Source of the DNA: Bacillota bacterium
Lineage (GTDB): Bacteria > Bacillota > Clostridia > Peptostreptococcales > Anaerovoracaceae
DNA: 64,000 nt
Assembly (NCBI GenBank): GCA_017459895.1
Contig: JAFUCA010000025.1
Span: 19,404-83,403, forward strand
Direction: 5' to 3'
In this document: positions 1,181 through 63,288 of the stretch, piece after piece
Layout: each line of letters starts with the position of its first letter
Numbering within the stretch: the first letter of the stretch is position 1
Made by a program: the position numbers and the translations under genes
The notes under the pieces: generated by a model
Databases searched by the model: none
Told to the model about the DNA's origin: nothing
Seen by the model: only the letters and a program-made list of their open reading frames with translations

Positions 1181-3592
1181 TTACCGTCCGTCCCGGGCAA
1201 CGCTGCGCAGCACGACGACGCTGACCGCGATGCAGATCAGGGCCATGAGTGCCATCACCCACCAGTCGGCCAGGACCGCCGGCGCATTCCAGTCGAAGTC
1301 CGTGGGTTCATCCTTGATCTTTTCCACGAAGTCCGGGCCGATGTTTCCCAGATTCGCGATCCGGCAGAGCCCCTCCACGGACCATTTGCTGACGGTGACG
1401 TAGGATATGACCTCTCCGATCGTATCCTTCAGATCGAACAGGAAGCCGGAAAACAGCAGCTGAACGATCAGCAGGAAGGGCGCGACGACCATGGCCTTGT
1501 CTCCGGATTTAACGATGGAGGATACGATCAGCCCCAGGGCCATGGAGGCGATGATCGTCAGCCAGACCGTCAGAATGATCTCCAGATACTCCCCGCCGCC
1601 GTTGAACAGCGTCTGTACGTCATCATACCGGATCTCCACCTTGCCGCCGTCCTTGAAATGATCCACCGTCAGCAGGAAGGTCATGGTCAGCAGAACCGCC
1701 TGCACCAGCCCGATGACCATCTGCACGATGACCTTGGAGCCCATGTAGACCGGCAGCAGCAGATTCGCCATGTATTCCCGCTTCAGGATGCTACGTTCTT
1801 TGCAGATCTCCTGGATGGAATTGAACAGGCCGATCCAGATCGCCGCGCAGCTTAAGGTAAACATGATGGATTTGGTCTGGTTGTACGCCAGAATGGCAAT
1901 CGGCGTTTCCTTCAGATCCTTCGGCATCTCTGTGTTGAAAACATCGAACACATGGGTTCCGGCAACGATGTACAGCAGCAGACCGATCAGAATCGGTTCC
2001 AGCATCAGGATCAGAAGCTTCCTTCGGTCGTTCATCAGCAGTTCCGTATACCGGCTCACCAGTGTGACAAACTGATTCACTGCGGGAACCCTGGGCCGGC
2101 GGTTGCGGATGACATCCCCGGCGGTGCCGATGGCCGGCCGGTCGCCGCTGCCGGTCTGAGCGAACCGCCTCTCCCAAAAGGCAGGATTCTTCGCGATAAT
2201 ATTGTAGATCTCCGTCAGGTCGTCGTTTCCGAAGAATTTTTTCGCCTCGTCCACATGTCCCACGAAGCACACCCTGCCGCCGGGGCCCATGAAAACGACC
2301 TTATCGCACAGGTGCAGGCTCTGGGTGGTATGGGTGACCATGATGATCGTCCGGGACTGCTCCTTGCAGAGCTTTCGCATGGAGATCATCAGGCTCTTCT
2401 CCGTTCCCGGGTCCAGTCCCGAGGTCGGCTCGTCCAGGAAAAACAGCTTCGGATCCGCCAGAAGCTCCACCGCAATGCTGGCCCGCTTTTTCTGGCCGCC
2501 GGACATCTTGCGAATCAGCGTATTCTGGTGCTGGGTCAGATCCAGCGTATGCAGAACGCTGTCGATGCGCGCCTGAATCTCACCTCGGCTGATGTCCTTT
2601 GGCATCCGCAGCTGAGCAGTGTACTGAAGCATCTTTCGCAGGGTCAGATTCTCGTAGATGATATCCTCCTGGGGCACGTAGCCGATGATGCTCTTCAGAT
2701 ACTGGAAATTACGTTTCAGGTTGATATTGTTAAAAAACACCTCTCCGGTATAGCTGCGGTCGAATCCGTTGAGAACATTCATGATGGTGGATTTGCCGGC
2801 GCCGCTTCCTCCGATGATCGCCACGAACTCATTGGCGTTGATGGTAACGTTCGCCTGATGGAGGATCTGTTTCTTTCCCTTGCCGCTGCCCACGATCTTA
2901 TTGATGTTTCTGGCAATGATACCGATTCCGCTGATCTGATCCTTGTAGTAGATGCTGTCTCCGGCATAGATCATCTGGAATCCGGAGATCTGAATCACAT
3001 CCTTGCTCTCCAGGATCACCGGGTGCTCCAAAGGCTGGCCGTTCACCAGAATGCCGTTGGTGCTGCGGGAATCCGCCAGAACGTATCTGCCGTCCTGCCG
3101 GGTGATCGTCGCATGTACCCTGGAAATGCTGGGATGCGCCAGAACGATATCGCAGGTCTCGGCGCGGCCGATGGTGATCCGGCTCTGCCCCAGGTCCTTG
3201 CGGGTGACCGTCTCCGCTGCGTTCATGAAGGAGAACCAGATCAGGATCCGCTTGTCCGGATTGCTGGCGCTGCCGATACGGATGGTGGAATGGTTGCTCA
3301 GTTCCACCGGAACGTCCGTGTTTTTCAGAAGGCTGGTGCCCGAAGCCGAAATGACGAAGCTGCCGTTGGAGCTGCGGTCATCGCAGTAGTAAAACCGTCC
3401 GTTCTCCAGAAAGATCCGTCCGTGATGCGAGGAAACAAATCCGTCGCCAATGACGATATCATTGCCTTCCGGTTTCCTTCCGATGCGAACGACCGGCCCT
3501 CCGAAACGGCCGAATTCATACTGATGCAATTCTCCCTGACTTCCGATCACGATCAGTCTCGGCTGCAGGTTCTGTCGCTGCGTATTACCCAT
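1181..3592 (-). CDS. FHA-FHA-ABC exporter (ABCG/ABC-2 type, ATPase and permease fused)
   Basis: An 803-residue protein. Two FHA phosphothreonine-binding domains come first (about 35-95 with RIGR, SSHH and SSNG; about 137-205 with TIGR, SRVH and STNG). An ABC ATPase follows: Walker A GGSGAGKST at 261-269, signature MSGGQ near 363, Walker B LFFLDEP near 383. An ABC-2 permease with about six membrane segments fills 535-800. This order matches ABCG-like half transporters carrying regulatory FHA modules. FHA domains bind phosphorylated Thr, so activity is probably controlled by the Ser/Thr kinase encoded 6 bp upstream. Substrate unknown. Confidence 0.9.
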   Translation of the reverse strand: MGNTQRQNLQPRLIVIGSQGELHQYEFGRFGGPVVRIGRKPEGNDIVIGDGFVSSHHGRIFLENGRFYYCDDRSSNGSFVISASGTSLLKNTDVPVELSNHSTIRIGSASNPDKRILIWFSFMNAAETVTRKDLGQSRITIGRAETCDIVLAHPSISRVHATITRQDGRYVLADSRSTNGILVNGQPLEHPVILESKDVIQISGFQMIYAGDSIYYKDQISGIGIIARNINKIVGSGKGKKQILHQANVTINANEFVAIIGGSGAGKSTIMNVLNGFDRSYTGEVFFNNINLKRNFQYLKSIIGYVPQEDIIYENLTLRKMLQYTAQLRMPKDISRGEIQARIDSVLHTLDLTQHQNTLIRKMSGGQKKRASIAVELLADPKLFFLDEPTSGLDPGTEKSLMISMRKLCKEQSRTIIMVTHTTQSLHLCDKVVFMGPGGRVCFVGHVDEAKKFFGNDDLTEIYNIIAKNPAFWERRFAQTGSGDRPAIGTAGDVIRNRRPRVPAVNQFVTLVSRYTELLMNDRRKLLILMLEPILIGLLLYIVAGTHVFDVFNTEMPKDLKETPIAILAYNQTKSIMFTLSCAAIWIGLFNSIQEICKERSILKREYMANLLLPVYMGSKVIVQMVIGLVQAVLLTMTFLLTVDHFKDGGKVEIRYDDVQTLFNGGGEYLEIILTVWLTIIASMALGLIVSSIVKSGDKAMVVAPFLLIVQLLFSGFLFDLKDTIGEVISYVTVSKWSVEGLCRIANLGNIGPDFVEKIKDEPTDFDWNAPAVLADWWVMALMALICIAVSVVVLRSVARDGR

Positions 3593-3598
3593 TGGCTG

Positions 3599-5670: not shown

Positions 5671-6834
5671 TTATAGTTTTCGTTCGATCTCAAGCACCTG
5701 GCTTCCCACCGTGATCCGGTCTCCCGGCTGCAGGCGGATTCTCGTACAGAAGGACAGCGGCCGGTCATTGATCCTCGTGCTGCGGTTCTCCGAGATATCC
5801 ACCAGATACATCCCATCGGATGCCGCGATCAGCAGCGCCTGCTGCGCCGCCACTCCCGGATCCGCGATCCACACCTCATTTCCCGAGCCATCTTCCTCCA
5901 AAGGCTGGCTTCCGATTCTGGTAACTGCCCGATCTCCGATACTCCAGCTTTTGCCTCCGCTGCGAAGCACATAACCCGGGGTCTGTTTTCGGGCCGATTC
6001 ATTGTAATTCTTGAAAAAAACCAGATGCTCCTTCGCCAGGGATACGATATCGTACGCTCCGATGTCATATTCGGTTCCCGGTGCGATGAGCCGTCCATTG
6101 AGCCCCACATGATTTAAGGAATCATTGTCCGTGATGGTATAGCTGTTTCGGATTTTTCGAACGGTGGCGTGTCTCCTGCTGATGGAATACTCTCCGGTGA
6201 TCACATAGTCCGCCTGGGCCTTGCTCCTGCCGAGGGTAAACTCGTTTTTGCGGATGTGGATCTTCTCCTGCGTCCTCACCCTGAGCAGATAGGTCTCCAG
6301 ATCTCCCGCCGAAAACCCCGGGATCCCCTGGGTCAGCGTCACCGTCTCATCGTCATCAAAATCTTCGATGGCGGAGAAGGTCCGGGCCGGCTGCCCCTTG
6401 CACTGATTCAGAGCTTCTGTCTCATACAGCTTGCGGATGAAGGCTTCGTCGGAATCGTATTTGCTGCGGTAGATCCCCTGCACGCTGGACAGGATCAGCT
6501 CCATTCCTCTGGACAGCGCCGCATCATCCAGGAAAAGGGAAACAAAGCTCTTCTCTCTTTGAACGGCGTAATTGATCTCGTTTCGGCAGTTGTGCGAGTT
6601 CGCGCTGGCCTCCGTAATAAACGCGATAAAAACACTGCATCTCTCCAGATGCATTGCGATATTTTCGGGCCACTCATCCCCCGGCGTGATCCCTTCATCA
6701 TACCAGATCCTGTAACCGTCCCGGTTCAGCCGTTCGATATAGGGATACACCAGTTCCTGATCCTGATGACTGTAGCTGATAAAAATATAGGCTTCCGATC
6801 CTTCGTATACTTCTGCACTGCACTTGATTCGCAC
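5671..6834 (-). CDS. TIR domain protein with C-terminal FHA domains
   Basis: A 387-residue cytoplasmic protein starting at GTG (GAGG six bases upstream). Residues 14-125 form a TIR domain: YIFISYSHQD, WYDEGITPGDEW and the SHNCRNEI segment, where Glu86 sits at the position of the NADase catalytic Glu in other TIR proteins. A clear FHA domain (TLGRSKAQADYVI, SISRRHATV, NHVGLNG) spans about 200-270, and a weaker FHA-like fold (IGDRAVTRIG, ENRSTRINDRP) spans about 295-387. TIR domains either assemble or hydrolyse NAD; the FHA part suggests recruitment to a kinase substrate. It lies between the STAS protein and the kinase in the same operon. Confidence 0.85.
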   Translation of the reverse strand: MRIKCSAEVYEGSEAYIFISYSHQDQELVYPYIERLNRDGYRIWYDEGITPGDEWPENIAMHLERCSVFIAFITEASANSHNCRNEINYAVQREKSFVSLFLDDAALSRGMELILSSVQGIYRSKYDSDEAFIRKLYETEALNQCKGQPARTFSAIEDFDDDETVTLTQGIPGFSAGDLETYLLRVRTQEKIHIRKNEFTLGRSKAQADYVITGEYSISRRHATVRKIRNSYTITDNDSLNHVGLNGRLIAPGTEYDIGAYDIVSLAKEHLVFFKNYNESARKQTPGYVLRSGGKSWSIGDRAVTRIGSQPLEEDGSGNEVWIADPGVAAQQALLIAASDGMYLVDISENRSTRINDRPLSFCTRIRLQPGDRITVGSQVLEIERKL

Positions 6835-9711: not shown

Positions 9712-11789
9712 ACTCCACCTCCGCCCGTATCGAGATCCAGATGCCGGCTGCATTCTTCGATGAGCAGCGGATCGTGAGTTATGATGATCAGAGTGCATCC
9801 CCTTCTGCGGATATTGCTCAGGATTCGTTCCGTCGTATCATCATCGATCGCGCTGAATGCCTCGTCGAGGATCAGGATCGACGGATCCGTTGCCAGAGCT
9901 CTGGCGATCTCCAGCCTTTGCCGTTCTCCTCCGGAAAGACCGCTTCCTCTTTCTCCCAGAACCGTTTCCAGTCCCTCCGGACGCTCCGCGATGCAATCCG
10001 ACAGTGCCGCATCCTCCACGGCCCTGCGGATCTCTTCCTCGGAGATGTTCGGATTCCACATGGTGATATTGCTGCGGATGGTTCCCGCGAACAGTTCCGA
10101 CTTCTGCCGGACCATCGCGATGCTGGCGAAGATCACCTGATCCGGGATCTCGCCGGCAGCCTTCCCGTCGTAATAGATTGTCCCCTCGGAGGGTTCCAGA
10201 AGGCCCCCAAAGAGCTTCCCGATCGTCGACTTGCCGCTGCCGGAGGGGCCGGTGACCGCAAGAGAAGACCCGACGGGCAGATACAGGTTCAGATCCTGCA
10301 CGATCGCCTCGCCGAACGCTCCGTAGGAAAAGCCCATCTTCAGACACCGGATGTTCCCCTGCAGCTTCCTGTAGGGATTTGCCGCCGGCGCTTCCTCGCC
10401 GCCGGGCCGAAGCATTTCCTCTCTCATCGGCATAATATCATCCACGGAGGCGAGCTCCTCGCTGATCCGGCGGCTCTGCATGCCGGTCCGCACGATCGAC
10501 TCCGCGGAAGGGATCATCATAAGGAAGAGGATCAGCCACGTATAGATGACTCCGGCTGATGCGTCCGGCCGGCCCATCGGAATGACCGCCGCCAGGCAGC
10601 AGCCGTAGATCACATACCTGCCTGCCGCTTCAGCGATCCGGATCCGCTTGATCCTGGCCGCGATCTCCGCCGCCTCCTGCTGCTGGTCTTTTGCCTCCGC
10701 CGCGAATTTGCGTCCCAGATCCAGATTCAGAATCGTCTCCAGCTTCCCGATGCCCGACAGCACCGTCCCCGCCAGCCTGGCTTCGCTGATGGACGCCCGC
10801 GTTTCATCAAAAACGATGGTGCGCTCCAGCATCTGCTGCAGGCCGAATGCCAGCAGCAGGCCGCAGAGGATCAGAAGGGAAGCCGCCGGCGTGAAATACC
10901 ATCCCGAGAAGATCAGGCAGGCAGCCACACATCCGGCATCGATTCCTCCCTGCAGCAGGGTGTGTGCCGTAAATCGGCTGATCCGATCATTGCGGCGGAC
11001 CCGCTCCACCAGATCCGACGGCGATCTCTGTTCAAAAAAAGAAATGGGCATCCGAAACAGCCGGCGCAGGAATCTCCATGAAAACTGCAGCTGGCTTCGT
11101 TCCTCCAGCCGTCGAAGCTGATATTCGCACAGGAAATATCCCATCAGACAGCACAGCAGACACCCTGCCAGAAAGCATAAGCGCAGCCCCTGCGGTGTCC
11201 CGGGGGGAAAGATCCCGGGCAGGGCCGCAGCCAGAAGCCCACCTGCCACGCAGAGCAGTCCGAAGAGAACGGACGATGCTGCCAGCGCCCCATGGGAATG
11301 AAGCAGCGGGCCGATTCTGCCGCTGCTGAAGAAAGTGTTCGGTTTTACACCGTATTCCGGATGATTCTTAAAATCCTCCCCGGGGGAAAAGGTCAGGGCG
11401 ATGTCTGAAAAGCTGCGCTCCAGCGTTTGCATATCGATGCGCCGCTTGCCGTACGCCGGATCGTTGATGTAACAGAATCCCCCCTTCATCCCTTCGTAGA
11501 CCACGAAATGATTCCGCTGCCACCACAGGATGCAGGGAACCGGCAGCTCGGAGAGGCCCTCGACATCGACCTCGTATCCGTCGCACTGCAGGCCCCGGCG
11601 CGCAGCTGCCCGGACAATGTTTCTGGCGCTGCTTCCGTCCCTGGAGACATCGGTTTCCGCCCGCAGCTGCTCCAGAGAAACGTATTGCCCGAAATACTGC
11701 AGGATCATGGACAGACATGCTGCGCCGCACTCGGTCGCTTCGATCTGCAAAACCGTTCGGGTGTCCGCCAGTCGCTTTCGTTCCGCCAT
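9708..11789 (-). CDS. C39 peptidase-ABC exporter (NHLM/bacteriocin type)
   Basis: About 693 residues from the ATG at 11789. Residues 1-125 form a C39 leader peptidase with the expected Gln15, Cys21 (ECGAACL), His92 (NHFVVYEG) and Asp108 (INDPAYG), so it should be able to cleave a double-Gly-type leader. A six-helix membrane domain follows, then an ATPase with [16 protein letters not shown] and ILILDEA. The start one base after the sigma-factor stop gives coupling; earlier in-frame ATGs overlap the sigma gene. No precursor peptide with a recognisable leader lies in the window, and no HlyD-like NHLM secretion protein is present in this locus. Confidence 0.9.
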   Translation of the reverse strand: MAERKRLADTRTVLQIEATECGAACLSMILQYFGQYVSLEQLRAETDVSRDGSSARNIVRAAARRGLQCDGYEVDVEGLSELPVPCILWWQRNHFVVYEGMKGGFCYINDPAYGKRRIDMQTLERSFSDIALTFSPGEDFKNHPEYGVKPNTFFSSGRIGPLLHSHGALAASSVLFGLLCVAGGLLAAALPGIFPPGTPQGLRLCFLAGCLLCCLMGYFLCEYQLRRLEERSQLQFSWRFLRRLFRMPISFFEQRSPSDLVERVRRNDRISRFTAHTLLQGGIDAGCVAACLIFSGWYFTPAASLLILCGLLLAFGLQQMLERTIVFDETRASISEARLAGTVLSGIGKLETILNLDLGRKFAAEAKDQQQEAAEIAARIKRIRIAEAAGRYVIYGCCLAAVIPMGRPDASAGVIYTWLILFLMMIPSAESIVRTGMQSRRISEELASVDDIMPMREEMLRPGGEEAPAANPYRKLQGNIRCLKMGFSYGAFGEAIVQDLNLYLPVGSSLAVTGPSGSGKSTIGKLFGGLLEPSEGTIYYDGKAAGEIPDQVIFASIAMVRQKSELFAGTIRSNITMWNPNISEEEIRRAVEDAALSDCIAERPEGLETVLGERGSGLSGGERQRLEIARALATDPSILILDEAFSAIDDDTTERILSNIRRRGCTLIIITHDPLLIEECSRHLDLDTGGGGV

Positions 11790-14728: not shown

Positions 14729-15982
14729 TTATTCCTGCGAATGTCTCCGGACCACCTGCGGGCTGTCCGCCGCCTGACTGTACCGGTCGCTGCCGATCAG
14801 CCCGGTATCGATGTAATCCTTGTACGGATCCGGCTGTCCCGCCGAGCCCAGCGGATGTATCCCGTCCCGATCATACCGGGTCAGTTCCAGACGGTCCGGC
14901 CAGATCTCACATACGACCGCGGTCAGAGCCTCATCGGCGGCAGAGTATTCCTCCGCACGCCCCGCGTCCAGCTCCTCCGGGCCGCAGTTCATGTAGTATC
15001 CGACGTAGCCCCCGTTCAGGTAGGTGAACCGCAGTGTTTTTTCTTCGTACCGATCGGTATGGACGTCTGTTTCTGCAAAGGCTGGAATGAGCAGTGTATC
15101 CCCCGCTGCCCTGTAAACGCTGCCGCCGCCCATATAGCAGTCCCAGCCTTTGGAATGATTATGCCCGAACAGATAGACAATGTCCAGTGACTCCGCTGCC
15201 TGATTCACCACATCAAAAATCAGCGACGCATACAGATTGTCTCCGGTGGTATGCCGCGAGGAGGTTCGGGCTGTGAAATGAAGGGGGACGTGCCCGGCAA
15301 TAAAGACCGGACGGCTCTCCCCCCGGGCGATCAGCTCATCAAAGCACTCCTGCATCTCCTTCGAGGCGCGCTTCACTTTTTTCAGACACCCCGATACCTT
15401 TCCCTGCTTCCAGGGGAAATCGTTCTCCGTGTTGAGCACGTACACCAGGTAATCATCGAATTCGTGAAGCCCGGACGCTGCAATGGACCGGGTCAGCTGA
15501 TCGTGGTTGCCCTGAACAAACAGCAACTGATCCGGGCGGAGCGAAGGGAATACCTCCTGCAGGACGCCGCGGATCTCTTCGATGGACTCCTCCGGACTGA
15601 TCTGGTAATCGTGGAGAACCCGGTCGTTGGTATAATCCCCCAGAAAAACCACTTCCTCCGGGTTCTGACCGGCCTCCTTCACTTCTTCCAGAATGTCCGT
15701 CAAGGTATCCTTCGGGGAAGCCCAGCCTTCCTCCTCCTGATAATCGGAAGCGAAAAAGACCGTCGCCGGCGTATCCGGATCCTCCGGCTGCTGCGCGGGC
15801 ATCTCCCCTGCCTGCTCCTCTGCTGCCTGCTCCTGCACTGCAGCAGTCTTATCCGGCTGCGTCTGCTGCTGATCGCTCTTCCCGGCGCAGCCGCAGACGA
15901 CCAGAAGCAGCAGGATCCACAGGATCCCCGCCCCTATAAGCCTGGCACGTCTGTTATTTCTCATTTCGTTTCTGATAGCCAT
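14729..15982 (-). CDS. Lipoprotein metallophosphoesterase (calcineurin-like)
   Basis: A 417-residue protein with an N-terminal membrane segment ending VVCGCAG, so Cys32 is the probable lipidation site, then a Gln/Glu-rich linker and a calcineurin-like fold: GDYTNDR, GNHD, AGHVPLH and FGHNH. The first metal motif, usually D-x-H, reads SDYQ, so one ligand seems changed. GGAAG precedes the ATG at 15982. It overlaps the end of the upstream phosphodiesterase gene by 29 bp. Substrate unknown; an extracellular phosphoester hydrolase. Confidence 0.82.
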   Translation of the reverse strand: MAIRNEMRNNRRARLIGAGILWILLLLVVCGCAGKSDQQQTQPDKTAAVQEQAAEEQAGEMPAQQPEDPDTPATVFFASDYQEEEGWASPKDTLTDILEEVKEAGQNPEEVVFLGDYTNDRVLHDYQISPEESIEEIRGVLQEVFPSLRPDQLLFVQGNHDQLTRSIAASGLHEFDDYLVYVLNTENDFPWKQGKVSGCLKKVKRASKEMQECFDELIARGESRPVFIAGHVPLHFTARTSSRHTTGDNLYASLIFDVVNQAAESLDIVYLFGHNHSKGWDCYMGGGSVYRAAGDTLLIPAFAETDVHTDRYEEKTLRFTYLNGGYVGYYMNCGPEELDAGRAEEYSAADEALTAVVCEIWPDRLELTRYDRDGIHPLGSAGQPDPYKDYIDTGLIGSDRYSQAADSPQVVRRHSQE

Positions 15983-20498: not shown

Positions 20499-21422
20499 TC
20501 ATGCCAGTCTGAAACGATCGCCCGCATCGGAAATCGTTATCTCCGTTCCTCTGGGCAGACAGTACAGACGATGCTGTCCCAAAGGCTGGCCGCTCTTCAT
20601 ATGTACGCACCTTCTGGCGGTGGGGTGAACGTGATATTCCTTCAGCTCCTCATCGAAACTGATCTGACAAAGGGATGCCTCCTCCCCGTGATCCACCGGA
20701 ATATCATCGCCCCCGGTGCTTCCGATGAACACCGTTTCCCCTCGGAGCATCGGATATCCTTTTCCTTCATACTTTCCTGCAAGTCCGATGATCGCCCCGT
20801 AAAACTCTCTGTCCGTTGTCACGATTTCACTTCCTTTCCTGAATGGCTCGTCAATGAGCAGCCTCTCCTGAAACCGATATTCTTCCCGCTTCCTATACTC
20901 CATCCTGCTGCGTGCCAGATACCAGACCACCAGTGCGAGTATGCCGACATGAAACACGGACCATACAAGGATCGATGACATCGGCACCTGCAGCACTTCC
21001 ATGTGCACCTGATCGTTCAGAAAACGCATCTGCCGGATCACAATGAGCTTCAGAGTCAGATTGACCAGCACCCCCAGCCCGGAGGACAGCAGGAGCCGTT
21101 CCCCTCTCAGCAGCAGCGCCAATGCGCTCTCGGCGATTCCCAGTGCGAATGAAAGGATCCATGCCGCCAGAAAAAACCGAATCATTTCCTTCAGCGCAAT
21201 GCCGCTGAGGCTTTCCGCAAATCTTCCGATCAGAGGAAGCGAACCCAAATCCTCCAGCCTTTGCAGAGAATGCATCAGGTCCCATCCGTAGATTTCCTGT
21301 CCTCCTGGGATCCTCATCACCGGCAGGAATGCGCTCAGGGCGATCAGCAGGAAGGTTCCTGCGATGGCGTATGATATCGTTCTTCTCCAATGTGCGGAGA
21401 GTTCAGTACCTGTTAACTTCAT
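20499..21422 (-). CDS. Membrane protein with C-terminal FHA-like domain
   Basis: A 307-residue protein: four predicted membrane helices (about 17-33, 80-105, 112-130, 148-168), then a cytosolic segment of about 130 residues with FHA features (ETVFIGSTGGDDIPVDHGEEASLCQISFDEELKEYHVHP). The Gly/Ser/His signature is weaker than in the other FHA proteins here. It begins inside the last codons of the TPR kinase gene (20-bp overlap), so the two are coupled and the kinase may phosphorylate or recruit its ligands. Confidence 0.75.
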   Translation of the reverse strand: MKLTGTELSAHWRRTISYAIAGTFLLIALSAFLPVMRIPGGQEIYGWDLMHSLQRLEDLGSLPLIGRFAESLSGIALKEMIRFFLAAWILSFALGIAESALALLLRGERLLLSSGLGVLVNLTLKLIVIRQMRFLNDQVHMEVLQVPMSSILVWSVFHVGILALVVWYLARSRMEYRKREEYRFQERLLIDEPFRKGSEIVTTDREFYGAIIGLAGKYEGKGYPMLRGETVFIGSTGGDDIPVDHGEEASLCQISFDEELKEYHVHPTARRCVHMKSGQPLGQHRLYCLPRGTEITISDAGDRFRLA

Positions 21423-25537: not shown

Positions 25538-25558
25538 GAAAGCCCCGCCAGCCTTTGC

Positions 25559-32437: not shown

Positions 32438-33388
32438 TCAGAGGAGTTCCCGCAGGCTCCGGATCCCGTACCGCTCCATGGCCGCTGGCAGGGCCTCGAT
32501 GATATCCCGGCAGGCGGCCGGGTTGACCAGGTTTTCCGATCCCACCTGAACCGCGCAGGCGCCAGCCATCATCATCTCCAGCACATCCCTCGCGGTGCGG
32601 ACACCGCCGCAGCCGATGACAGGGATCTTCACCGCCCGGCTCACCTGATAGACGCAGCGCAGCGCCACCGGGAGCACCGCCGGTCCGGAAAATCCGCCCA
32701 TGGTATTCGCCAGCACAGGCCTGCGGCTCTTCAGGTCGATCCGCATTCCCAGCAGAGTATTGATGGCGGTAAGCCCATCCGCCCCTGCCGCTTCACAAGC
32801 CCGGGCGATCTCGGTGATGTCGGTCACGTTCGGCGACAGCTTGGCGATCACCGGCTTGTCCGTAACACGGCGGACAGCGCGGATCACCTCCGCCGCAGCC
32901 TTTGGATCCGTCCCGAAGGCCATCCCTCCGTTCTTCACGTTCGGACAGGAGATGTTGACCTCCAGCCATCCCACCTGATCACTGGGCTCCAGCTTCTCCG
33001 CCACCAGCGCGTACTCCTCCGGGCTTCCGCCGCAGACATTGGCCATGACCTTCTTATGAAATACCTTCGCCAGCGCCGGCAGCTCCTCGCGGACCACCGC
33101 GTCCACTCCGGGATTCTGCAGTCCTACGCTGTTGAGCATTCCCTCGGTGCATTCGGCGATTCTCGGAGTCTCATTGCCGAACCTCGGCTCCGGCGTCGTC
33201 CCCTTAAAGGAGAAGGTTCCCAGCAGATTGATATCGTAGACCTCTGCGAACTCCCGGCCGTAACCGAAGGTGCCGCTGGCCGCCATGACCGGATTGTCCA
33301 GTTCGATCCCGCAAAGGCTGGTTCGAAGGCCTTCGAAGGAACCCGGGGCAGCCGCCCGCTCCGGATGTTCTGTTTGTTTCTTTACCAT
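32438..33388 (-). CDS. pyrD: Dihydroorotate dehydrogenase, catalytic subunit (class 1B)
   Basis: A 316-residue FMN enzyme. Typical segments are GIELDNPVMAASGTFGYG, NSVGLQNPG, VNISCPNVKNGG, the Lys in VIAKLSPNVTDI, and GCGGVRTARD near the C-terminus. It oxidises dihydroorotate and passes electrons to PyrK and NAD. The gene start overlaps the last codons of pyrK. Confidence 0.96.
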   Translation of the reverse strand: MVKKQTEHPERAAAPGSFEGLRTSLCGIELDNPVMAASGTFGYGREFAEVYDINLLGTFSFKGTTPEPRFGNETPRIAECTEGMLNSVGLQNPGVDAVVREELPALAKVFHKKVMANVCGGSPEEYALVAEKLEPSDQVGWLEVNISCPNVKNGGMAFGTDPKAAAEVIRAVRRVTDKPVIAKLSPNVTDITEIARACEAAGADGLTAINTLLGMRIDLKSRRPVLANTMGGFSGPAVLPVALRCVYQVSRAVKIPVIGCGGVRTARDVLEMMMAGACAVQVGSENLVNPAACRDIIEALPAAMERYGIRSLRELL

Positions 33389-34221: not shown

Positions 34222-35390
34222 CTTCTGTAAACAACCTTTCCCTTGTATACCGTCATCACGCACCGGCCGCTGACCTCCCAGCCGGCAAAGGGCGTGCTTT
34301 TTCCTTTGCTTAGGAACTGCTCCGGCCGGATCTCATAGGACTCATCCAGATCCCAGACGCTGAATGTGGGCGCGGGATCCGCTTCCTCCGGCAGGTCCTC
34401 CTCGATCCCAAACCGTTTATTCGGCGCGCTCGTCAGCAGCTCCACCAGCCTTTGCATGGGGAGGAACCCGGGCTTTACCAGCTTCGTGTAGAGCACCGGG
34501 AACGCCGTCTCCAGACCCACGATCCCGTAAGCGCTGCCGGCGAATCCCCCGGACTTTTCCTCCGCGCTGTGGGGTGCGTGATCGGTGGCGATCATATCGA
34601 TGGTCCCGTCACAGACCGCTTCGATCAATGCATCCCGATCCTTCTTCGCCTTGATCGGCGGATTCATCTTGAACCGTCCGTCGTCTTCGATCTCTTCATC
34701 GGTGAGCGTCAGATAATGGGGCGCCGTTTCACAGGTCACATCCAGCCCCGCCTCCTTCGCCTCCCGGATCAGGGCCACCGATTCTCTGGTGGACACGTGA
34801 CACATATGATAGGGACATCCGGTCATCTCCGCCAGATAGAGGTCCCGGATCAGCTGCCAGTACTCCGCCTCCCGGCTCTCCCTTGAAAACCGCGTATCCT
34901 CACAATGGGCCACGGCGATGCTCCCCGCCGCCTTCACCCGCTCCATGGCTTCCCGCATGAGCCCGTCGTCCATTACGCCGACGCCGTCATCGCTGAAGCC
35001 TGCAACGTACGGTGCCAGAGCCTCGATGTCGGAGACCCGCTCCCCCTTCTCTCCGCAGGTCAGCGAACCGAGGGGATGTACACCGATGCAGGCATCCCGC
35101 AGGATGATCTCCGTCTGTGCCCGCAGATGCTCCGCATTATCCGGCACCGGGTCCAGGTTCGGCATCGTCAGAACGTGTACGAACCCGCCGGCCGCGGCAG
35201 CCTTTGTTCCCGTCGCGATGGTTTCCTTATATAAAAAACCCGGTTCTCTCAGATGAACATGTACATCTGTAAAACCGGGTAAAATAGAATATTCATTGAA
35301 ACGAGCATCCGCGTCAAGGGGAGAACACGCCTCCCGCAAGGTGCTCCTCGCGTCCGCCATTCTGATTGGTGTGTTCATTCGGTCTCTCAT
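34218..35390 (-). CDS. pyrC: Dihydroorotase
   Basis: About 390 residues. Metal ligands appear in FTDVHVHLREPG and ATDHAPHS, and the family segment SDDGVGVMDDG is present. It cyclises carbamoyl aspartate. Start at 35390 follows GGAGG by five bases. The protein is about 30-40 residues shorter at the N-terminus than usual class I dihydroorotases, so the first strand of the beta-sandwich part looks trimmed. It is the first gene after a strong sigma-A promoter. Confidence 0.94.
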   Translation of the reverse strand: MRDRMNTPIRMADARSTLREACSPLDADARFNEYSILPGFTDVHVHLREPGFLYKETIATGTKAAAAGGFVHVLTMPNLDPVPDNAEHLRAQTEIILRDACIGVHPLGSLTCGEKGERVSDIEALAPYVAGFSDDGVGVMDDGLMREAMERVKAAGSIAVAHCEDTRFSRESREAEYWQLIRDLYLAEMTGCPYHMCHVSTRESVALIREAKEAGLDVTCETAPHYLTLTDEEIEDDGRFKMNPPIKAKKDRDALIEAVCDGTIDMIATDHAPHSAEEKSGGFAGSAYGIVGLETAFPVLYTKLVKPGFLPMQRLVELLTSAPNKRFGIEEDLPEEADPAPTFSVWDLDESYEIRPEQFLSKGKSTPFAGWEVSGRCVMTVYKGKVVYRR

Positions 35391-35478: not shown

Positions 35479-36489
35479 TTATTTCGATCCGGGAACCACA
35501 AATCGAAAAGCCTTTGGCGCGATGGTGAACCGGACCGCTCCAGCCTTTGTGATTTCACCGTCCACGCAGAGCTTCATGGTTTTTCGGTTCGGTGAGATGT
35601 GCAGAGATGTTTCCCGGGTGTAGCGGATCACGTCCGACAGCCGTCTGTCTGAAAGATGGGTTCCCTTCATGTACTTAGGGAACAGCCGGACGAAGGTATG
35701 CCGGGGAATGTTTCGGACCAGACTTACGTCGAACCTGCCGTCATCGGTCACGGCCCTGGGGATCCCTTTGACGCCCCCTCCGCAGAAACACCCGTTGGCG
35801 ACGGCGATCAGCAGGAGCTTGCCGTCGTGAACAAAACCATCCCCATACTCCACGCGAAGATCCGCCCCCTTTTTCTCCGCCAGCATCGCGAAGACACTGG
35901 CCAGGTACGCCAGCGATCCGCTCATCAGAGGCAGCTTCTTCATCCTGGCCGTCAGGTCGACCACGTTGCTGTCGAAGCCGATATTGAACATGTTGACGCA
36001 GTAACGGGATACATACGCGTCGTCACAGATCCCCTCGTAGCGGATCAGATCGCAAAGGCTGGCCTGTCCCCGGATCTGAGCAATCAGGTCATCGAACCGC
36101 CCTTCCGGGAAATTCCGGATGAAATCATTGCCGGTCCCCGCCGGGATGCAGCCGATCTCCGCGAAGTCATACCCGGCCGCTCCGTTGACCACTTCGTTCA
36201 ATGTTCCGTCTCCTCCGCAGGCATAAAAGCGCAGGGAACTGGCAGCCTGCCTGTCTGCAGAAGCTGTAGCGCGGGCAGCCTGCCTGTCTGCAGAAGCTGT
36301 CGCGCCGTCCACCGCCGCCTGCTTCTCGCAGCAGCTGCGCACAAACCGCTCCGCATCCCCCGGCGCCGTCGTTTCATGAACTTCATAGTCAATGCCGGCG
36401 ACCTGACACACCGCATGTATGTCCGGGATCAGATCCAGGGCCTTTCCCTGGCCGGCGGCGGGGTTCACGAGAAAGAAGTGCCTGGTCAT
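35479..36489 (-). CDS. Diacylglycerol kinase-family lipid kinase (YegS/DgkB-like)
   Basis: About 336 residues. The nucleotide-binding GGDGTLNEV motif and GTGNDFIRNFP are present, with the N-terminal VNPAAGQGKA typical of the family. It phosphorylates diacylglycerol or a related lipid in the membrane. A 33-bp tandem duplication near 36241-36306 adds two ATASADRQAA[RS] units between the first strands, in frame. Start at 36489 overlaps the ansA stop (ATGA). Confidence 0.9.
   Translation of the reverse strand: MTRHFFLVNPAAGQGKALDLIPDIHAVCQVAGIDYEVHETTAPGDAERFVRSCCEKQAAVDGATASADRQAARATASADRQAASSLRFYACGGDGTLNEVVNGAAGYDFAEIGCIPAGTGNDFIRNFPEGRFDDLIAQIRGQASLCDLIRYEGICDDAYVSRYCVNMFNIGFDSNVVDLTARMKKLPLMSGSLAYLASVFAMLAEKKGADLRVEYGDGFVHDGKLLLIAVANGCFCGGGVKGIPRAVTDDGRFDVSLVRNIPRHTFVRLFPKYMKGTHLSDRRLSDVIRYTRETSLHISPNRKTMKLCVDGEITKAGAVRFTIAPKAFRFVVPGSK
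36241..36306 (-). repeat. In-frame 33-bp tandem duplication in the lipid kinase gene
   Basis: The sequence GGCAGCCTGCCTGTCTGCAG and its flank recur with an offset of 33 bp (copies start at 36241 and 36274). Each unit encodes 11 residues, ATASADRQAAR, so the frame is kept. It looks like a recent slippage event in a surface loop. Confidence 0.9.
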
Positions 36490-37894: not shown

Positions 37895-38014
37895 TTCTGT
37901 ATCATGACGGTAGTTTCTGTATCATGACGATAGTTTCTGTATCATGACGGTAGTTTCTGTATCATGACGATAGTTTCTGTGTCATGACGGTAGTTTCTGT
38001 GTCATGACGGTAGT
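37895..38014 (+). repeat. Six tandem 20-bp repeats
   Basis: The unit TTCTGTATCATGACGGTAGT repeats six times with an exact 20-bp period; copies vary only at two positions (A/G), and GG/GA versions alternate in the first four. Each contains the palindrome TCATGA. A decayed seventh unit follows (TTTGCATCGTAACGGTGC). The array lies between the 3' end of the ornithine gene set and ansA. Confidence 0.95.
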
Positions 38015-38054
38015 TTTGCATCGTAACGGTGCAACATGCCCCGAAGTCCGGGAC

Positions 38055-39839
38055 CTACGCGTTCCGGAACGGGCAGTGGACGTGGGCGCAGATGTGGCAT
38101 TCCCGGTTGCAGTTCGGGCGGCCGTCCTCCCCCAGTTCCCCTACGCCGCAGGCGCGTACCATCTTCCGGTCGTTCAGGGCGGCTTCCTCCATGATCCGCT
38201 CGCCCTCGGCCTTCGCCTTCGCGGCGCGGGCGGCTTCGGCCTCTTCTTCGGTGATCAGACCGTAGTCCAGCTTGTACTCGGTCATGTCGTAGCCCTGCTC
38301 CTCGCATTCCAGGATGTGCTTGATCATCTCCTCCCGGTCCGCGTCCTTCTCCGCAAGCTCCGCGGCCACGCCGGCCAGGGCAGCGGGGACATCGCCGGCT
38401 GCTCCAGCCTTTGCATCGGCATCGGCTGCGTTGTGCTCGCCCCGGGTCTTCTTGCCCAGATCATCGAATCTGACCCCCAGGCTCTTTTCCAAAAGCCGGA
38501 TGGTCCCTTCCCGGTGGGTCTTGGAGAGAACGCCCAGAGAAGCCATGATGTAGTCGTTGTCCACCAGGATCTCCGCATGGGAGGTCGGGAACAGCCGGGT
38601 CCCGGTCTCATCGTATTCGCAGATCCGGCCCATGATCTCCCTGCGATGGGGAAGCCGGGTCATGGCGCCGCCGGTGCCGACGATGTATTTGACCGGTGTC
38701 AGGTCCTTACCCTCTGCCACCGAGGACCGGCCGGAAGGACCGTAAATGTACCGGATCTGGCCGGCGTGGCGTTCGACCGCTTTCATGCAGGCCTCCTCCG
38801 CCAGAATCTCCACCAGCTTGAATTCGTCTTCGTTCTTCGGGATCGCCACGTAGGTCTCCAGCGTCTTCTCCGGATCGATCCCCGCCTTCTCGCAAAGGCT
38901 GGCGAACTTTTCTTCGCCGATGGACTCGATGACCTTATATCGGTTCACGTAAAGGCCCAGGTCCCCCTCGACGGTCCGCTTCGCTTTCGGTTCCGGGGAG
39001 ATCATGATGCGGGCCACCTGATCCGATTCCGTGGCCACGGAATGGACGTCCGTCGTCGCTCCGCCGATGTCCAGCACCATCAGATCGCCGATGCACTCGT
39101 GGAGCAGCTTGGTGCACTCCATGACCGCGCCGGGGGTTGGAATGATGGGACCGCTCACCATATCCCGCACGTGCTCCATGCCGGGAGCATTGGTGATGTG
39201 ATCCTCGAAGGCATCCTGAATGACCCTGCGGCAGGGCTCCACATTCAGATCATCGATCTTCGGATAGACGTTGTCGACATTGTAGAGTTTCTGGCCGCTC
39301 TCTTCATCGAAGATCAGCTCCATCTCCTCCTGGTTCTCGATGTTGCCGGCATAGATGATCGGCGTCTTCAGGCCGAGGGAACGGATCTTCTCCGCATTGT
39401 CCAGGGCCGTATCCCGCTCGCCGTAATCCACGCCGCCGGCGATCAGGATCAGGTTCGGCTGGATCTCCTTGATCTTCGCCAGATCCGTGCGGCGCAGCCT
39501 GCCCGCGGTGACAAAGTGAATGATGCCGCCGGCCCCCAGCGCTGCTTCCTTGGCCGCCTTGGCCGTCATATCGTAGACCAGGCCGTGGACCGTCATCTTC
39601 AGTCCGCCGGCCGCGGAGGAAGTGGCCAGCATCTCGTCGTATTCGAGCCGGTCGATCCCTTTCTTCGCACAGAGGTCGTCAATGGCGCCCTGCAGGCCCA
39701 CCCGGACATCGCCTTCCAGCACGGACGTGGGCGCCTGCCCCTGGCCCCAGAAGACCGGATCTTCCGAATCGATGTCTTTGAATGCGTTTACTACTGTTGT
39801 CGTTGAGCCGATCTCGGCTACCAGAACATCTACCTTCAT
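38055..39839 (-). CDS. GlmL/MutL-family protein of the ornithine aminomutase cluster
   Basis: A 594-residue actin-fold (ASKHA) ATPase-like protein. N-terminal LVAEIGSTTTVVNAF and the central LDIGGATTDVHSV are phosphate-binding motifs of the MutL/GlmL family, which accompany B12-dependent carbon-skeleton and amino mutases and are thought to maintain or reactivate them. The C-terminus is unusual: an Ala-rich insert near 490-510 and a Cys-rich end (CNRECHICAHVHCPF) that could bind a metal. It ends the operon after oraE, with AGGAG before the ATG. Confidence 0.88.
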   Translation of the reverse strand: MKVDVLVAEIGSTTTVVNAFKDIDSEDPVFWGQGQAPTSVLEGDVRVGLQGAIDDLCAKKGIDRLEYDEMLATSSAAGGLKMTVHGLVYDMTAKAAKEAALGAGGIIHFVTAGRLRRTDLAKIKEIQPNLILIAGGVDYGERDTALDNAEKIRSLGLKTPIIYAGNIENQEEMELIFDEESGQKLYNVDNVYPKIDDLNVEPCRRVIQDAFEDHITNAPGMEHVRDMVSGPIIPTPGAVMECTKLLHECIGDLMVLDIGGATTDVHSVATESDQVARIMISPEPKAKRTVEGDLGLYVNRYKVIESIGEEKFASLCEKAGIDPEKTLETYVAIPKNEDEFKLVEILAEEACMKAVERHAGQIRYIYGPSGRSSVAEGKDLTPVKYIVGTGGAMTRLPHRREIMGRICEYDETGTRLFPTSHAEILVDNDYIMASLGVLSKTHREGTIRLLEKSLGVRFDDLGKKTRGEHNAADADAKAGAAGDVPAALAGVAAELAEKDADREEMIKHILECEEQGYDMTEYKLDYGLITEEEAEAARAAKAKAEGERIMEEAALNDRKMVRACGVGELGEDGRPNCNRECHICAHVHCPFRNA

Positions 39840-45599: not shown

Positions 45600-45636
45600 T
45601 GCAAAGGCTGGAATTCCAATGTTTCCAGCCTTTGCA
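45600..45636. repeat. Inverted pair of the TGCAAAGGCTGG motif
   Basis: Two exact 12-mers (45600-45611 and, inverted, 45625-45636) extend to a 14-bp perfect stem around a 9-base loop. It lies between the activator stop and the sigma-54 promoter. No T run follows on the minus strand, so it is not a standard terminator. Paired inverted copies near gene ends are typical of known DNA uptake sequences. Confidence 0.85.
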
Positions 45637-50782: not shown

Positions 50783-51441
50783 GCGACGATCCTCCCGTCT
50801 TCGATCCGGATGATCCGCTTCGCCTGCTGCGCGATCTGCAGATCATGGGTGATCAGCACGATGGTCTGCCCTGCTTCGTTCAGTTCTTTCATTAGTGAAA
50901 TGATGCTCCGGCCCGTTGCCTGATCCAGAGCTCCTGTGGGTTCATCCGCAAGAATCAGTTTCGGATCTCCGACCAGGGCTCTGGCAATAGCGGCTCTTTG
51001 CTGCTGCCCTCCGGAGAGCTGTGAAGGCAGGTGATCCTTCCGATTGCCCAGCCCCAGCCTTTGCAAAAGCTGGCCGGCCTTCTCTCTGGCATCTTTTTCG
51101 CTGACCCCGCGATAGAGGAGCGGCACCATCACATTCTCCTCTGCCGTCATCCGCGGAAGGAGGTGAAAACTCTGGAAGATGAATCCGATGTTCCTTCCCC
51201 GGAGTACCGTCTGTTCATCGTCATCCAGTCCGGTCACATCCGTCCCGTCGAACCAATAGGTGCCCTCGTCCGCCGTGTCCAGCATTCCGATGATATTCAT
51301 CAGCGTCGACTTGCCTGATCCGGACGGGCCGACGATGGAAACGAAATCCCCATCCCCGACGGTCATGCTGATTCCATCGACCGCTGTGACGGTCTCTTCG
51401 CCCATGGCGAATCGTTTCCTGAGAGATTCCAGTTCGATCAT
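50779..51441 (-). CDS. ABC transporter ATP-binding protein (MacB/LolD-like)
   Basis: A 220-residue ATPase with Walker [10 protein letters not shown], signature LSGGQQQR, Walker [13 protein letters not shown] and the switch His in LITHD. It drives the permease whose gene overlaps its stop codon. An exact copy of the dispersed 12-mer lies in the coding sequence at 51054. Confidence 0.94.
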
Positions 51442-56066: not shown

Positions 56067-56660
56067 ATGCCAAAGATGAAGCTCAATTCTCTGGAGACCG
56101 TTCTGGAGATGCCATATTTCAATGTTTATTCCGCAATGTACGAAAACCGGGAGACCTCTCACATCGCTCAGTACGATATCGTTTCCCGCAACAAGGATCT
56201 GTCCATGCAAAGGCTGGGGCGGAACCTTCCGGTGAGCGCTGTGGCGATCCTTCCCGTGGATCCGGTAAACCGGCGGATCCTGCTGACCCGGGAATTCCGT
56301 ATGCCGGTCAATGATTACTTAGTCGCCATCCCTGCCGGTCTGGTCGATCCCGGCGAGGATGTCCGCGCGGCCGCCATCCGGGAGCTTCGGGAAGAGACCG
56401 GCTGTATCGCAGACCGGGTCATGGTTCTGCCTCCGGCATTTTCGTGCATCGGACTGACCGATGAAACAGCCGCCTGCGCTATCGTCACCGTCCGGCAGCA
56501 GGGCCGGGCGGAACAGGAAGAAAACGAAGAGATCACCAGCCGCTGGTATTCCTACGAGCAGGCCCTGGCCATCATGACCGACCCACAGGTGCGGACCGGA
56601 GCACGGGCCCAGCTTCTGGTCCTGTTCTGGCTGGCGCAGGAAGGGATGAAGGTTCTGTAA
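56067..56660 (+). CDS. Nudix hydrolase (ADP-ribose pyrophosphatase-like)
   Basis: A 197-residue protein with a full Nudix box: GLVDPGE, seven residues, REL-REETG. The N-terminal domain and LTREFRMPVNDYLVAIPAG segment resemble ADP-ribose pyrophosphatases. It hydrolyses a nucleoside diphosphate linked to another group. The stop codon overlaps the start of the helicase gene (TAATG), so they are coupled. An exact copy of the dispersed 12-mer encodes MQRLG near the N-terminus. Confidence 0.9.
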   Translation: MPKMKLNSLETVLEMPYFNVYSAMYENRETSHIAQYDIVSRNKDLSMQRLGRNLPVSAVAILPVDPVNRRILLTREFRMPVNDYLVAIPAGLVDPGEDVRAAAIRELREETGCIADRVMVLPPAFSCIGLTDETAACAIVTVRQQGRAEQEENEEITSRWYSYEQALAIMTDPQVRTGARAQLLVLFWLAQEGMKVL

Positions 56661-60445: not shown

Positions 60446-60465
60446 TTTTAATCACATACAAAATT

Positions 60466-60524: not shown

Positions 60525-61919
60525 TTAGAACTCGCACGTCTTCGGCGTGCGCGGGAACGGCAGTACGTCGCGGATGTTGCTCATACCGGTGATGTACATG
60601 ATGATCCGTTCAAAGCCCAGTCCGAATCCGGAGTGAACCACGCCGCCGTACTTGCGCAGTTCCAGATACCACCAGTAGTCTTCCTCGGTCATGCCCATCT
60701 CTTCGATCCGGCTCTTAAGCAGATCGTAACGTTCCTCTCTCTGGCTTCCGCCGATGATCTCGCCGACCCCCGGCACCAGCAGATCGCAGGCCGCCACGGT
60801 CTTGTTGTCGTCGTTGAGCCGCATGTAGAAGGCCTTGATCTCCTTCGGGTAGTCGGTGACGAAGACCGGTTTCTTGAAGATCTTCTCAGTGATGTAACGC
60901 TCGTGCTCCGTCTGCAGGTCGATGCCCCACTCCACCGGATAGTCGAATTTCTCGCCGGACTTCAGCAGCAGGTCGATGGCTTCGGTGTAGGTGACTCTCG
61001 CAAAGTCTGAGGAAACGATGTTGTCCAGCCTTTGCAGAAGGCCCTTATCGACGAACTTGTTGAAGAATTCCATCTCCTCCGGCGCGTTCTCGAGAACGTA
61101 ATTGATCACGTATTTGATCATGGCCTCGGCCACCTCCATATTGCCTGCCAGATCACAGAACGCCATCTCCGGCTCGATCATCCAGAACTCGGAGGCGTGG
61201 CGGGCGGTGTTGGAATTCTCTGCCCGGAAGGTAGGCCCGAAGGTGTAGATGTTGCGGAATGCCAGGGCGAAGATCTCACCCTCCAGCTGACCGCTGACGG
61301 TCAGGCAGGTCTTCTTACCGAAAAAGTCCTCGCTGTAATCGATCCCGCCGTCCTCGGTGCGGGGCGGATCATTCAGATCCAGCGTGGTCACCTGGAACAT
61401 CTCACCGGCGCCCTCCGCGTCGCTGGCGGTGATCAGCGGTGTATGGACATATACGAAGTCATTGTCCTGGAAGAACCGGTGCAGCGCGTAGGCCACCAGG
61501 GAGCGGACCCGGAATACGGCGGAGAAGGTGTTGCTTCTCGGACGCAGGTGCGCGATCTCCCGCAGGAATTCCATGGAATGGCGCTTCTTCTGCAGGGGGT
61601 AGTCCGCCGCGGAATCGGCTTCGATGCTGACCTGCTGCGCCTTGATCTCAAAGGGCTGCTTGGCCTCCGGCGTCAGAACGAACTGTCCCGTTACGTTCAG
61701 CGCCGCCGAAATCGGCGCCTTGGAGATCTCCGCGAAATTCTCCAGCAGCTCTGCCTCATAAACGATCTGCACGGATTTAAAAAACGATCCGTCGTTCAGT
61801 TCGATGAATCCGAACCGGTTCGATCCGCGGTTGGTTCTGATCCAGCCCCGGACCGTGATCTGCTGATCCGCGAACTGCTCTGTTTCTCTATACAGCTGTC
61901 TGACGGTTACTTCTGTCAT
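60525..61919 (-). CDS. asnS: Asparaginyl-tRNA synthetase
   Basis: A 464-residue class II synthetase. N-terminal OB-fold anticodon domain ([24 protein letters not shown]), motif 2 [15 protein letters not shown] and motif 3 [15 protein letters not shown]. It charges tRNA-Asn. AAGGAG lies nine bases before the ATG. No T-box leader was found upstream. Confidence 0.96.
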
Positions 61920-62031
61920 GATCTTCTCTCCTTATCGATTGTTCTTTCCTGACTGCACGCCCTCCGGCTTCCGTGGACCTGCCTGTCCAGCCTTTGCACA
62001 GAAAAACCGCCGGCAGCAGTCGGCAAGCTTG

Positions 62032-62225: not shown

Positions 62226-62255
62226 GTGGTTGATTCGAGAGAGTCAGGTCGTCTG

Positions 62256-62522
62256 TGATTGCAGATTCGGTCTCTCGTTATGAATTTCTGCAACACAGGG
62301 CTTTCCGGTGGGTCGTTTCACCCCTTCAGACCGCGAAACCCGGCCCCTTGTTGCAGAAGTTTTTCCCGAAAAACCATTTCTGCAACAAAACGCTCAGAAT
62401 TGTTGCAGATATCGTAATCTCAAAAATGAATCAACAAAACGGAGGTACAGGATGGACTATATCATTCAGGAAATCGACCTCTTGTTGCAGATTCTGCTTT
62501 CCCGCAGAGCAATCTGCAGCAA
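62256..62522. repeat. Array of TGTTGCAGA words in alternating orientation
   Basis: Seven copies or near copies (near 62258, 62286, 62348, 62378, 62400, 62482 and 62509). Neighbouring inverted copies can pair as hairpins, for example TTGTTGCAGAA with TTCTGCAACAA (62348-62388). The last pair lies inside the first 25 codons of the nuclease-like gene. The same word family occurs at 49155-49615. Confidence 0.8.
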
Positions 62523-63288
62523 AAGACTGTCACTGAGTCCTCCCGGCGGACTGAACCGGGTCATGGTGCGAAAACGGCCGGTTTACTCCCATGCCGTTCC
62601 AAGGGGAAGGTACTCCGGCGGGTCAATCCGTTACCAGCGGACCGAGATCTCGGAAGACGATCCCCTGCTGCGGGAGCTGGCGCTCAAGGAATATCTGCGG
62701 ATCACGCTGAGGATTCTCGATAACAACATCCGCGTTCTTGAGTGTGCAAAGGCTGGCCTTAAGTCTCTGGAATTCAGCACAGTCCGCTCCCAGATGCGAA
62801 GACCCTACCAGGCCTTGGATAAGGAGCTTCTTTCCCTCGCGTTTCTGGACGGATCATCCCTGTCCGCACAGCACGCCTGGGCTGCCCGGCCTTTTGAACA
62901 GAGCACCTATCGGCCGGAAGAAAAGATCCACATTACCAGCCGGGGGCTTGCCATGCGAAGCCGCGCCGAGCTTCTGATCGCAGAAATGCTGTATCGATTT
63001 GACATTCCGTTTCGCTATGAGCAGGTGATCCGCGCCGGACGGTATGAGCTGGCACCGGATTTCACCTTTCTGGATGCGGATGGCAACGAGTTCTACTGGG
63101 AGTACTGCGGCATGATGAGCGTTCCGGGTTACCGGGATCACCAGCTTTGGCGCCGCAAAATGTACGAGAGCATTGATATCTGCGAGTGGACCAACATGAT
63201 CTGCACTTACGATGCCTCGGACGGGATCGATATGCGGGAGATCGAGGCGATCATCAGAACGAAGATCCTGCCGCGGATGCAGGGCTGA
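62452..63288 (+). CDS. Orphan protein with possible PD-(D/E)XK-type nuclease fold
   Basis: A 278-residue protein; GGAGG six bases before the ATG sets the start. No family is recognised in the N-terminal 160 residues. The C-terminal part has RSRAELLIAEML (Glu173), a PDFTF motif (Asp203) and YWEYCG (Glu217), spaced like the acidic residues of restriction-endonuclease-like folds, though the usual Lys of ExK is not evident. Its own DNA carries TTGCAGA-type repeats at the 5' end. Function unknown; DNA cleavage or DNA binding is a hypothesis. Confidence 0.6.
   Translation: MDYIIQEIDLLLQILLSRRAICSKRLSLSPPGGLNRVMVRKRPVYSHAVPRGRYSGGSIRYQRTEISEDDPLLRELALKEYLRITLRILDNNIRVLECAKAGLKSLEFSTVRSQMRRPYQALDKELLSLAFLDGSSLSAQHAWAARPFEQSTYRPEEKIHITSRGLAMRSRAELLIAEMLYRFDIPFRYEQVIRAGRYELAPDFTFLDADGNEFYWEYCGMMSVPGYRDHQLWRRKMYESIDICEWTNMICTYDASDGIDMREIEAIIRTKILPRMQG

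Follow-up and report, generated by a model that had tools for sequence, protein, structure and literature searches.

According to the available part of one paper (PMC12616744), only two families, the Neisseriaceae and the Pasteurellaceae, are known to discriminate between DNAs at the step of uptake. The DNA uptake sequences (DUS) of the Neisseriaceae fall into dialects that surround an invariant core, as described by Frye et al. (2013, PMC3630211). A study of frequent k-mers in the terminators of thousands of genomes names uptake signals, in the portion cited here, in the Neisseriaceae and Pasteurellaceae (PMC13020248), and an extract of a 2025 paper sets Neisseria against "sequence-independent" systems elsewhere (PMC12040237). 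Among the matches listed in our literature search, as judged by titles and the beginnings of abstracts, we found no uptake sequence reported from Clostridia or other Bacillota. Here we describe a 10-mer, CAAAGGCTGG, with its 11-mer and 12-mer forms GCAAAGGCTGG and TGCAAAGGCTGG, which recurs throughout a stretch of 64,000 nucleotides (the window) from a Bacillota bacterium of the clostridial family Anaerovoracaceae (assembly GCA_017459895.1, contig JAFUCA010000025.1, positions 19,404 to 83,403; G000:C46:19404-83403 in our numbering). Judged by its excess and distribution, the word is probably a self-DNA uptake signal, which would make it a third independent origin of such signals, in Clostridia.

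In several respects the word resembles a DUS, as far as these are described in the sources at hand: it is a 10- to 12-mer with hundreds to thousands of copies, it has clade dialects around an invariant core, and it is absent from some relatives. The core itself differs, being GCAAARGC here and CTG within a GCCGTCTGAA-like word in the Neisseriaceae, and the present system belongs to another phylum and has fewer copies, while its role in uptake and any ComP-type receptor are hypothetical. The uptake signal sequences (USS) of the Pasteurellaceae, in the excerpts available (PMC12616744, PMC1852404), are likewise genome-wide short motifs, built on a conserved core and falling into a small number of types, but their core is GCGG, they carry AT-rich downstream tracts and their hosts are Gram-negative, whereas the sequence logo here has no AT-rich tail. 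Because the core words differ, the word lies outside both the DUS and the USS families.

Within the window the 12-mer has 11 exact copies, compared to 0.02 expected from dinucleotide shuffles, and the 11-mer has 16, both as counted in the original prediction, which had been made from the window alone. That prediction gave 22 copies of the 10-mer; its excess holds, and the exact count is 23 (0.22 expected), the extra copy at 930..939 preceding the range then given. The two orientations had been described as about equally frequent, and so they are, with 11 copies on the + strand and 12 on the - strand in the window, and 395 forward and 396 reverse copies in the whole assembly, a 2.50-Mb draft of 55 contigs that is 93% complete and 5% contaminated. 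The word read backwards, our control for whole-genome counts, occurs 7 times in the same assembly (4 forward, 3 reverse), and with 791 copies assembly-wide the word is not confined to the window as a mobile repeat would be. Nor is its frequency near the Markov expectation: in 420 kb of the genome (the window and 20 further stretches) 141 copies were seen and 2.3 expected under an order-4 model, and there CAAAGGCTGG, shifted or extended, accounts for the top five 8-mers and for all twelve of the listed 11- and 12-mers. Overall, the excess of the 10-mer in this genome is about 60- to 110-fold.

Certain departures from the word are tolerated and others are not. The variant CAAAAGCTGG was seen 39 times with 1.8 expected, and changes of the last G were seen 57 times with 3.6 expected, whereas single-base variants at positions 2, 3, 4, 7 and 9 numbered 7 with about 16 expected (order-3 model, 480 kb). 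These figures bear on the proposal that the word is the recognition sequence of a restriction-modification system, either enriched or protected, for which it can be said that the motif is both sequence-specific and clade-specific. Restriction sites, as a rule, have a fixed sequence and are either avoided or neutral, so that an excess of this size in a 10-mer with tolerated variants fits them poorly, and a methylase alone would leave the excess unexplained. Judged from these word counts, the explanation is very improbable.

The distribution of the word was studied in 480 kb of the same genome, in 24 stretches, with genes called by a simple gene finder of our own that gave a coding fraction of 0.91. 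Genes hold 132 of the 164 sites, 71 on the same strand as the gene and 61 on the opposite one, with every phase occupied; the remaining 32 are intergenic although intergenic DNA makes up 9% of the bases, a two-fold enrichment. The window shows the same picture on a smaller scale, with 18 of 23 sites inside genes and 5 between them, and the six phases that had been reported there are all confirmed (6, 3 and 2 sites in the three phases of the same strand and 1, 3 and 3 in those of the opposite strand). Thus codon or amino-acid usage, such as a preference for Ala-Lys-Ala encoded by GCAAARGCA, is refuted as the source of the word by the counts of phases and intergenic sites, and we give it next to no credence. 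The Ala-Lys-Ala frame does lead in a related form of the word in six other genomes (dialect 2, below), where it accounts for 58 of 196 sites and is the commonest phase, but there too all six phases are used and 28 of the 196 sites are intergenic (7% of bases). The excess itself is measured against Markov models of order 3 or 4 built from the DNA in question.

Strand and spacing speak to two further explanations. A Chi-like site, at which a helicase-nuclease or recombination factor would recognise the word and bias recombination nearby, had been named as an alternative, and any site that aids its own transmission by recombination could accumulate across a genome and acquire clade variants; at the level of sequence, a recombination hotspot and an uptake signal would look alike. 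Chi sites are short words with a strong preference for one strand along the replichore. The motif here has 10 to 12 bases, and strand bias is absent both among stretches and relative to genes: the 480-kb sample has 79 sites on the + strand and 85 on the -, with no heterogeneity among the 23 site-bearing stretches (chi-squared 6.8 on 23 degrees of freedom), adjacent sites are in the same orientation 46 times and in opposite orientations 95 times, and the balance relative to genes is that given above, all in a draft without a located origin. A Chi-like role is therefore unlikely in our estimation. The second explanation is a binding site for a chromosome-organising or regulatory protein acting in segregation, nucleoid structure or replication, which would account for hundreds of copies across both strands. 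Neither clustering nor a pattern of orientation is seen in the 480-kb sample, where the coefficient of variation of the spacing is 0.91, and flanks that vary by clade around a constant core are less expected of a house-keeping site; we consider this quite unlikely.

A small self-copying mobile repeat, of the repetitive extragenic palindromic (REP) type or a miniature element, would explain the high copy number, and two pairs of sites 23 bases apart do form inverted repeats with predicted hairpins, one of them at 45600-45636 of the window. Around the 141 copies, however, there is an upstream preference for G (75%) and T (62%), and outside the 12-mer no position has a single base in more than 51% of copies. 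The 132 genic sites in all phases are a second difficulty for this idea, and a third comes from related genomes, where inexact sites show substitutions and the core is interrupted by a gap in only 2 of 40 comparisons made in both directions. Variable flanks, genic sites in all phases and turnover by substitution largely refute the mobile repeat, and we hold it to be scarcely tenable.

Aligned with sequence from four other dialect-1 genomes (66.8 kb in 33 alignments), the sites prove better conserved than their flanks. The exact 10-mer was kept in 11 of 22 comparisons of 12 sites, where flanks 79% identical would by themselves preserve about one in ten 10-mers; two of the 22 are biased, their locus having been chosen for its pair of sites, and one further comparison, cut by the end of the alignment, was excluded. 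Of the 11 inexact comparisons four show a single base difference and seven show between two and six. These substitution differences, together with the rarity of core gaps, indicate that most gain and loss of sites happens through base changes in homologous DNA.

Among the site-poor stretches of the sample, the longest lies at the end of contig C3, where an integrative element adjoins smpB (G000:C3:44200-60000, or L039:4200-20000). The element is 15.8 kb long, has a guanine-plus-cytosine content of 46% compared to about 57% for the genome, and encodes a serine recombinase, a Replic_Relax protein and a coupling-type ATPase. At the host rate 5.4 sites would be expected in it and 1 is present, a weak result as this is a single element picked afterwards as the poorest stretch. 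It also carries two amidoligase-like genes, a gamma-glutamyl cyclotransferase and an MT-A70 methylase.

When the genus is considered, with 49 draft genomes including G000, many of them incomplete, CAAAGGCTGG proves to be one dialect of a motif with a constant core, GCAAARGC, and flanks that vary by clade. The 10-mer itself is abundant in five genomes (791, 477, 388, 375 and 334 copies), and the remaining 44 have at most 41. Copies numbering 334 to 477 are also found in CAMOZS (SRR873601_bin.129), JAFRLD (RGIG2569, from goat jejunum), CAMNJK (SRR1206671_bin.70) and CACXCQ (RUG11137), with counts identical to those of the four other CAAAGGCTGG-rich genomes of the genus. When named genomes were scanned for copies of the word lying close together as inverted pairs, at least 118 stretches emerged, mostly with one pair per genome and likely due to chance, and the scan was set aside; eighteen genomes from it were counted whole, and the four just named had 334 to 477 copies.

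The core reaches our threshold of at least 300 copies per Mb, a density computed with rounded genome sizes, in 35 of the 49 genomes, and the other 14 have at most 186. When 8-mers are ranked in genomes sampled for at least 18 kb (nine more of the 35 fall short of this), one of the two core words is in the top five in 23 of 25 motif genomes, the exceptions being G030 (rank 25) and G022 (rank 48), and in none of six non-motif genomes, where its best rank is 184. G044 is among the 35 by density, at 321 per Mb, but this is just 1.6 times its control and the core has rank 3372, and in the ranking it was treated as a non-motif genome. In samples of ten other genomes, GCAAAGGCA and GCAAAAGCA lead in G003, G005 and G006; G029 and G039 give weaker hints of a related word, and the others give none. 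Initial sampling of G010 (80 kb of contig C25), G020, G038 and G040 did not place the core among the top words, and it emerged with more sequence or with an order-3 model.

The dialects, whose names were coined in this analysis, are TGCAAAGGCTGG (dialect 1), tGCAAARGCA with AAC or AGA extensions (dialect 2), and GCAAAGGCC or GCAAARGCT (dialect 3); the word of G039 and G040 is CAAAGGCAG[G], and few or mixed sites underlie the labels given to G011, G021, G023, G038, G041 and G045. Among 192 genomes of the same family but outside the genus, none exceeds 25 copies of the dialect-1 word. The core is mostly unremarkable there, with 8 of the 192 at 300 per Mb or above (the largest 402, read off a table), and of these only G077 (2.4 times) and G090 (9.6 times) are more than double the backwards control, a ratio that by itself separates genomes poorly. 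G077 and G090 belong to other genera of the family and, with 402 and 356 core words per Mb, are possible further carriers. Mild excesses of CAAAGGCTGG occur in two unrelated bacteria, the Prevotella genome RGIG3419 (G254, L084; 60 copies, 4 backwards) and a member of the Kiritimatiellales (G255, L160; 52 copies, 10 backwards). Other over-represented words were seen in G015 (TTCTGACAA; L218-L220) and in G017 (L335) and G039 (L202-L205, L323-L324), which share ATGCTCCC.

It had been suggested that com genes be looked for, and G000 encodes both ComEC and type IV filament genes. Its ComEC scores 221 bits with the ComEC_Rec2 model, compared to an NCBIfam cut-off of 190. A competence-like type IV pilus operon comprises genes for a T2SSF/PilC protein, a PilT-family ATPase (411 bits, NCBIfam cut-off 319) and four small proteins, each having a hydrophobic helix at its N-terminus. 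As in the Gram-positive ComG pilus, a single T2SSF/PilC-like protein and a single ATPase are encoded next to four small pilin-like proteins, but the ATPase is of the PilT family and the ComGB and ComGA models stay below their cut-offs (124 compared to 240 bits and 121 compared to 300). Models of two of the four pilin-like proteins, based on 11 and 12 aligned sequences, show a long helix with a small head, with predicted local distance difference test (pLDDT) values of 83 and 87; their best structural matches are pseudopilins (E 0.13) and the pilin PilA4 (E 0.78), with none at E 0.001. A Tad-like pilus operon is also present, recognised by eye from its open reading frames and, for the ATPase, by a Pfam match, and the competence of Micrococcus luteus is described as using a Tad-like pilus (PMC6370729, in the part available). 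The close pilus ATPase matches at 100% identity on two contigs, G000:C14:1334-2386 and G000:C34:335836-336888, perhaps an assembly duplicate. Of the 49 genomes of the genus, 40 have ComEC, 29 have the PilC-like protein and 27 have a close orthologue of the pilus ATPase; the raw ATPase tally of 43 includes weak matches, and a 41%-identical match in G031 was set aside.

Single-gene, midpoint-rooted trees were built for ComEC and the pilus ATPase. The ComEC tree, which covers 30 of the 40 genomes with a match (those left out include the non-motif G024, G025, G043 and G047), splits seven non-motif genomes from 23 motif genomes (support 100/98) and joins dialect 1, here two genomes, to G039 and G040 (100/99). 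In the ATPase tree of 27 genomes the four genomes of dialect 1 form one clade (96/98). The dialects are thus consistent with phylogeny on the ComEC tree and less so on the ATPase tree, with several labels based on few sites. As a side note, the ComEC proteins of G000 (L215:10544-13093) and G046 (L279, partial) are 47% identical, and their PilC and ATPase proteins 92-94%.

The original reading as an uptake sequence fits the excess, the balance of strands, the use of all phases, the intergenic enrichment, the conservation and the dialects. The mechanism we propose is that the word marks the cell's own kind of DNA: free DNA bearing it would be bound preferentially at the cell surface and, once inside, would enter the chromosome by recombination. 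As tagged fragments would be favoured in uptake, transformation would then spread any mutation that gives rise to a site, and sites would as a result pile up wherever they are tolerated, whatever their orientation or frame, though more sparsely in mobile DNA of recent arrival. The receptor would be carried by a pilus, whether the competence-like type IV pilus or that of the Tad type, and the dialects around the constant core would limit exchange between clades. On balance we lean towards this fuller picture of a third, independent specificity for self-DNA, the first in a Gram-positive lineage: a clade of gut Clostridia would have retained its GCAAARGC core over a span in which at least three dialects arose, these acting much as mating types do in limiting gene exchange, with a type IV or Tad pilus receptor working without an outer membrane. 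If so, sequence-specific uptake has evolved repeatedly, the third case having an unrelated word in Clostridia, and natural transformation would be predicted for bacteria represented here by uncultured draft genomes. Dialect-tagged DNA could then serve as a handle for transforming harmless gut isolates, and the dialects offer a new system for asking whether uptake signals act as species barriers.

Several observations weigh against an uptake signal. Word-biased uptake is something we infer, and the receptor is putative. The word is thinner on the ground than in the classical cases, with one exact 10-mer per about 3.2 kb, and the single site in the integrative element still exceeds that element's own Markov expectation of 0.05. 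Close pairs of sites are at chance level in the 480-kb sample (2 gaps below 45 bp, 2.7 expected), and no T run follows either folded hairpin, the pair in the window having been checked on either strand; co-option of inverted pairs as terminators is thus unsupported, in contrast to Neisseria. A ComP-like minor pilin would be sought among the pilin-like proteins, yet three of the four in G000 are acidic (isoelectric points 4.3-4.4), while the Neisseria receptor is described as having an electropositive stripe (PMC3630211, in the part available).

The distribution of the machinery among the 49 drafts is a further difficulty. ComEC occurs in 30 of the 35 genomes with at least 300 core words per Mb and in 10 of the other 14 (p 0.25), and the close pilus ATPase in 21 of 35 and 6 of 14 (p 0.35), neither a significant association. 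G015 and G020, which are 98% and 96% complete, carry the word without a close pilus ATPase, and the ATPase tree scatters the non-motif genomes, with G004 among motif genomes at a weakly supported fork. DprA, ComEA and ComFC were also sought by crude matching of amino-acid motifs, which gave nothing in the partial samples covered and proves little.

The individual sites of the window illustrate the variety of contexts. The full 12-mer is found in genes at 15074..15085 (+, opposite strand, read as PAFA), at 21254..21265, 51054..51065 and 61025..61036 (all -, same strand, QRL), at 56206..56217 (+, same strand, QRL), at 38404..38415 (-, AKAG) and at 62745..62756 (+, same strand, AKAG), and at 61987..61998 (-) it lies between divergent genes. 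The inverted pair at 45600..45636, also between genes, consists of two full 12-mers (+ at 45600-45611, - at 45625-45636) and is predicted to fold with a stem of 14 to 15 bp. At a further 12-mer in a gene, 34445..34456 (-, QRL), the 10-mer is exact in G009, replaced by CAAAAGCTGG in G046 and changed in G042.

The remaining copies are of the 10-mer. The one at 930..939 (-) lies in a gene at 294-1160 (-), on the same strand and in phase 2. Those at 3029..3038 and 5899..5908 (both +, opposite strand, phase 2) are read as QPL, as is 20580..20589 (+, opposite strand), while 9911..9920 (-, same strand, phase 0) is read as QRL and 15143..15152 (-, same strand, phase 2) as KGW. Sites at 25548..25557 (-) and 32243..32252 (+) lie between genes. 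Three on the + strand, each opposite to its gene, are read as SLC: 33312..33321, exact at the equivalent place in G046, G042 and G009; 36053..36062, inexact in G046 and G009; and 38893..38902. The site at 35540..35549 (-, in a gene, TKAG) is exact in G046 and changed in G009.

Two other repeats were noted in the window. At 37900-38020, just past the 3' end of a gene on the - strand (38055-39839), there is an array of tandem 20-bp units, AACTACCGTCATGA with ACACAGA or ATACAGA spacers, some units having one base changed. At 19635-19693, within an open reading frame on the - strand (19112-19990), a 15-bp repeat, CCGCCCTGGTAACC, steps by 15 and likely encodes a short peptide repeat.

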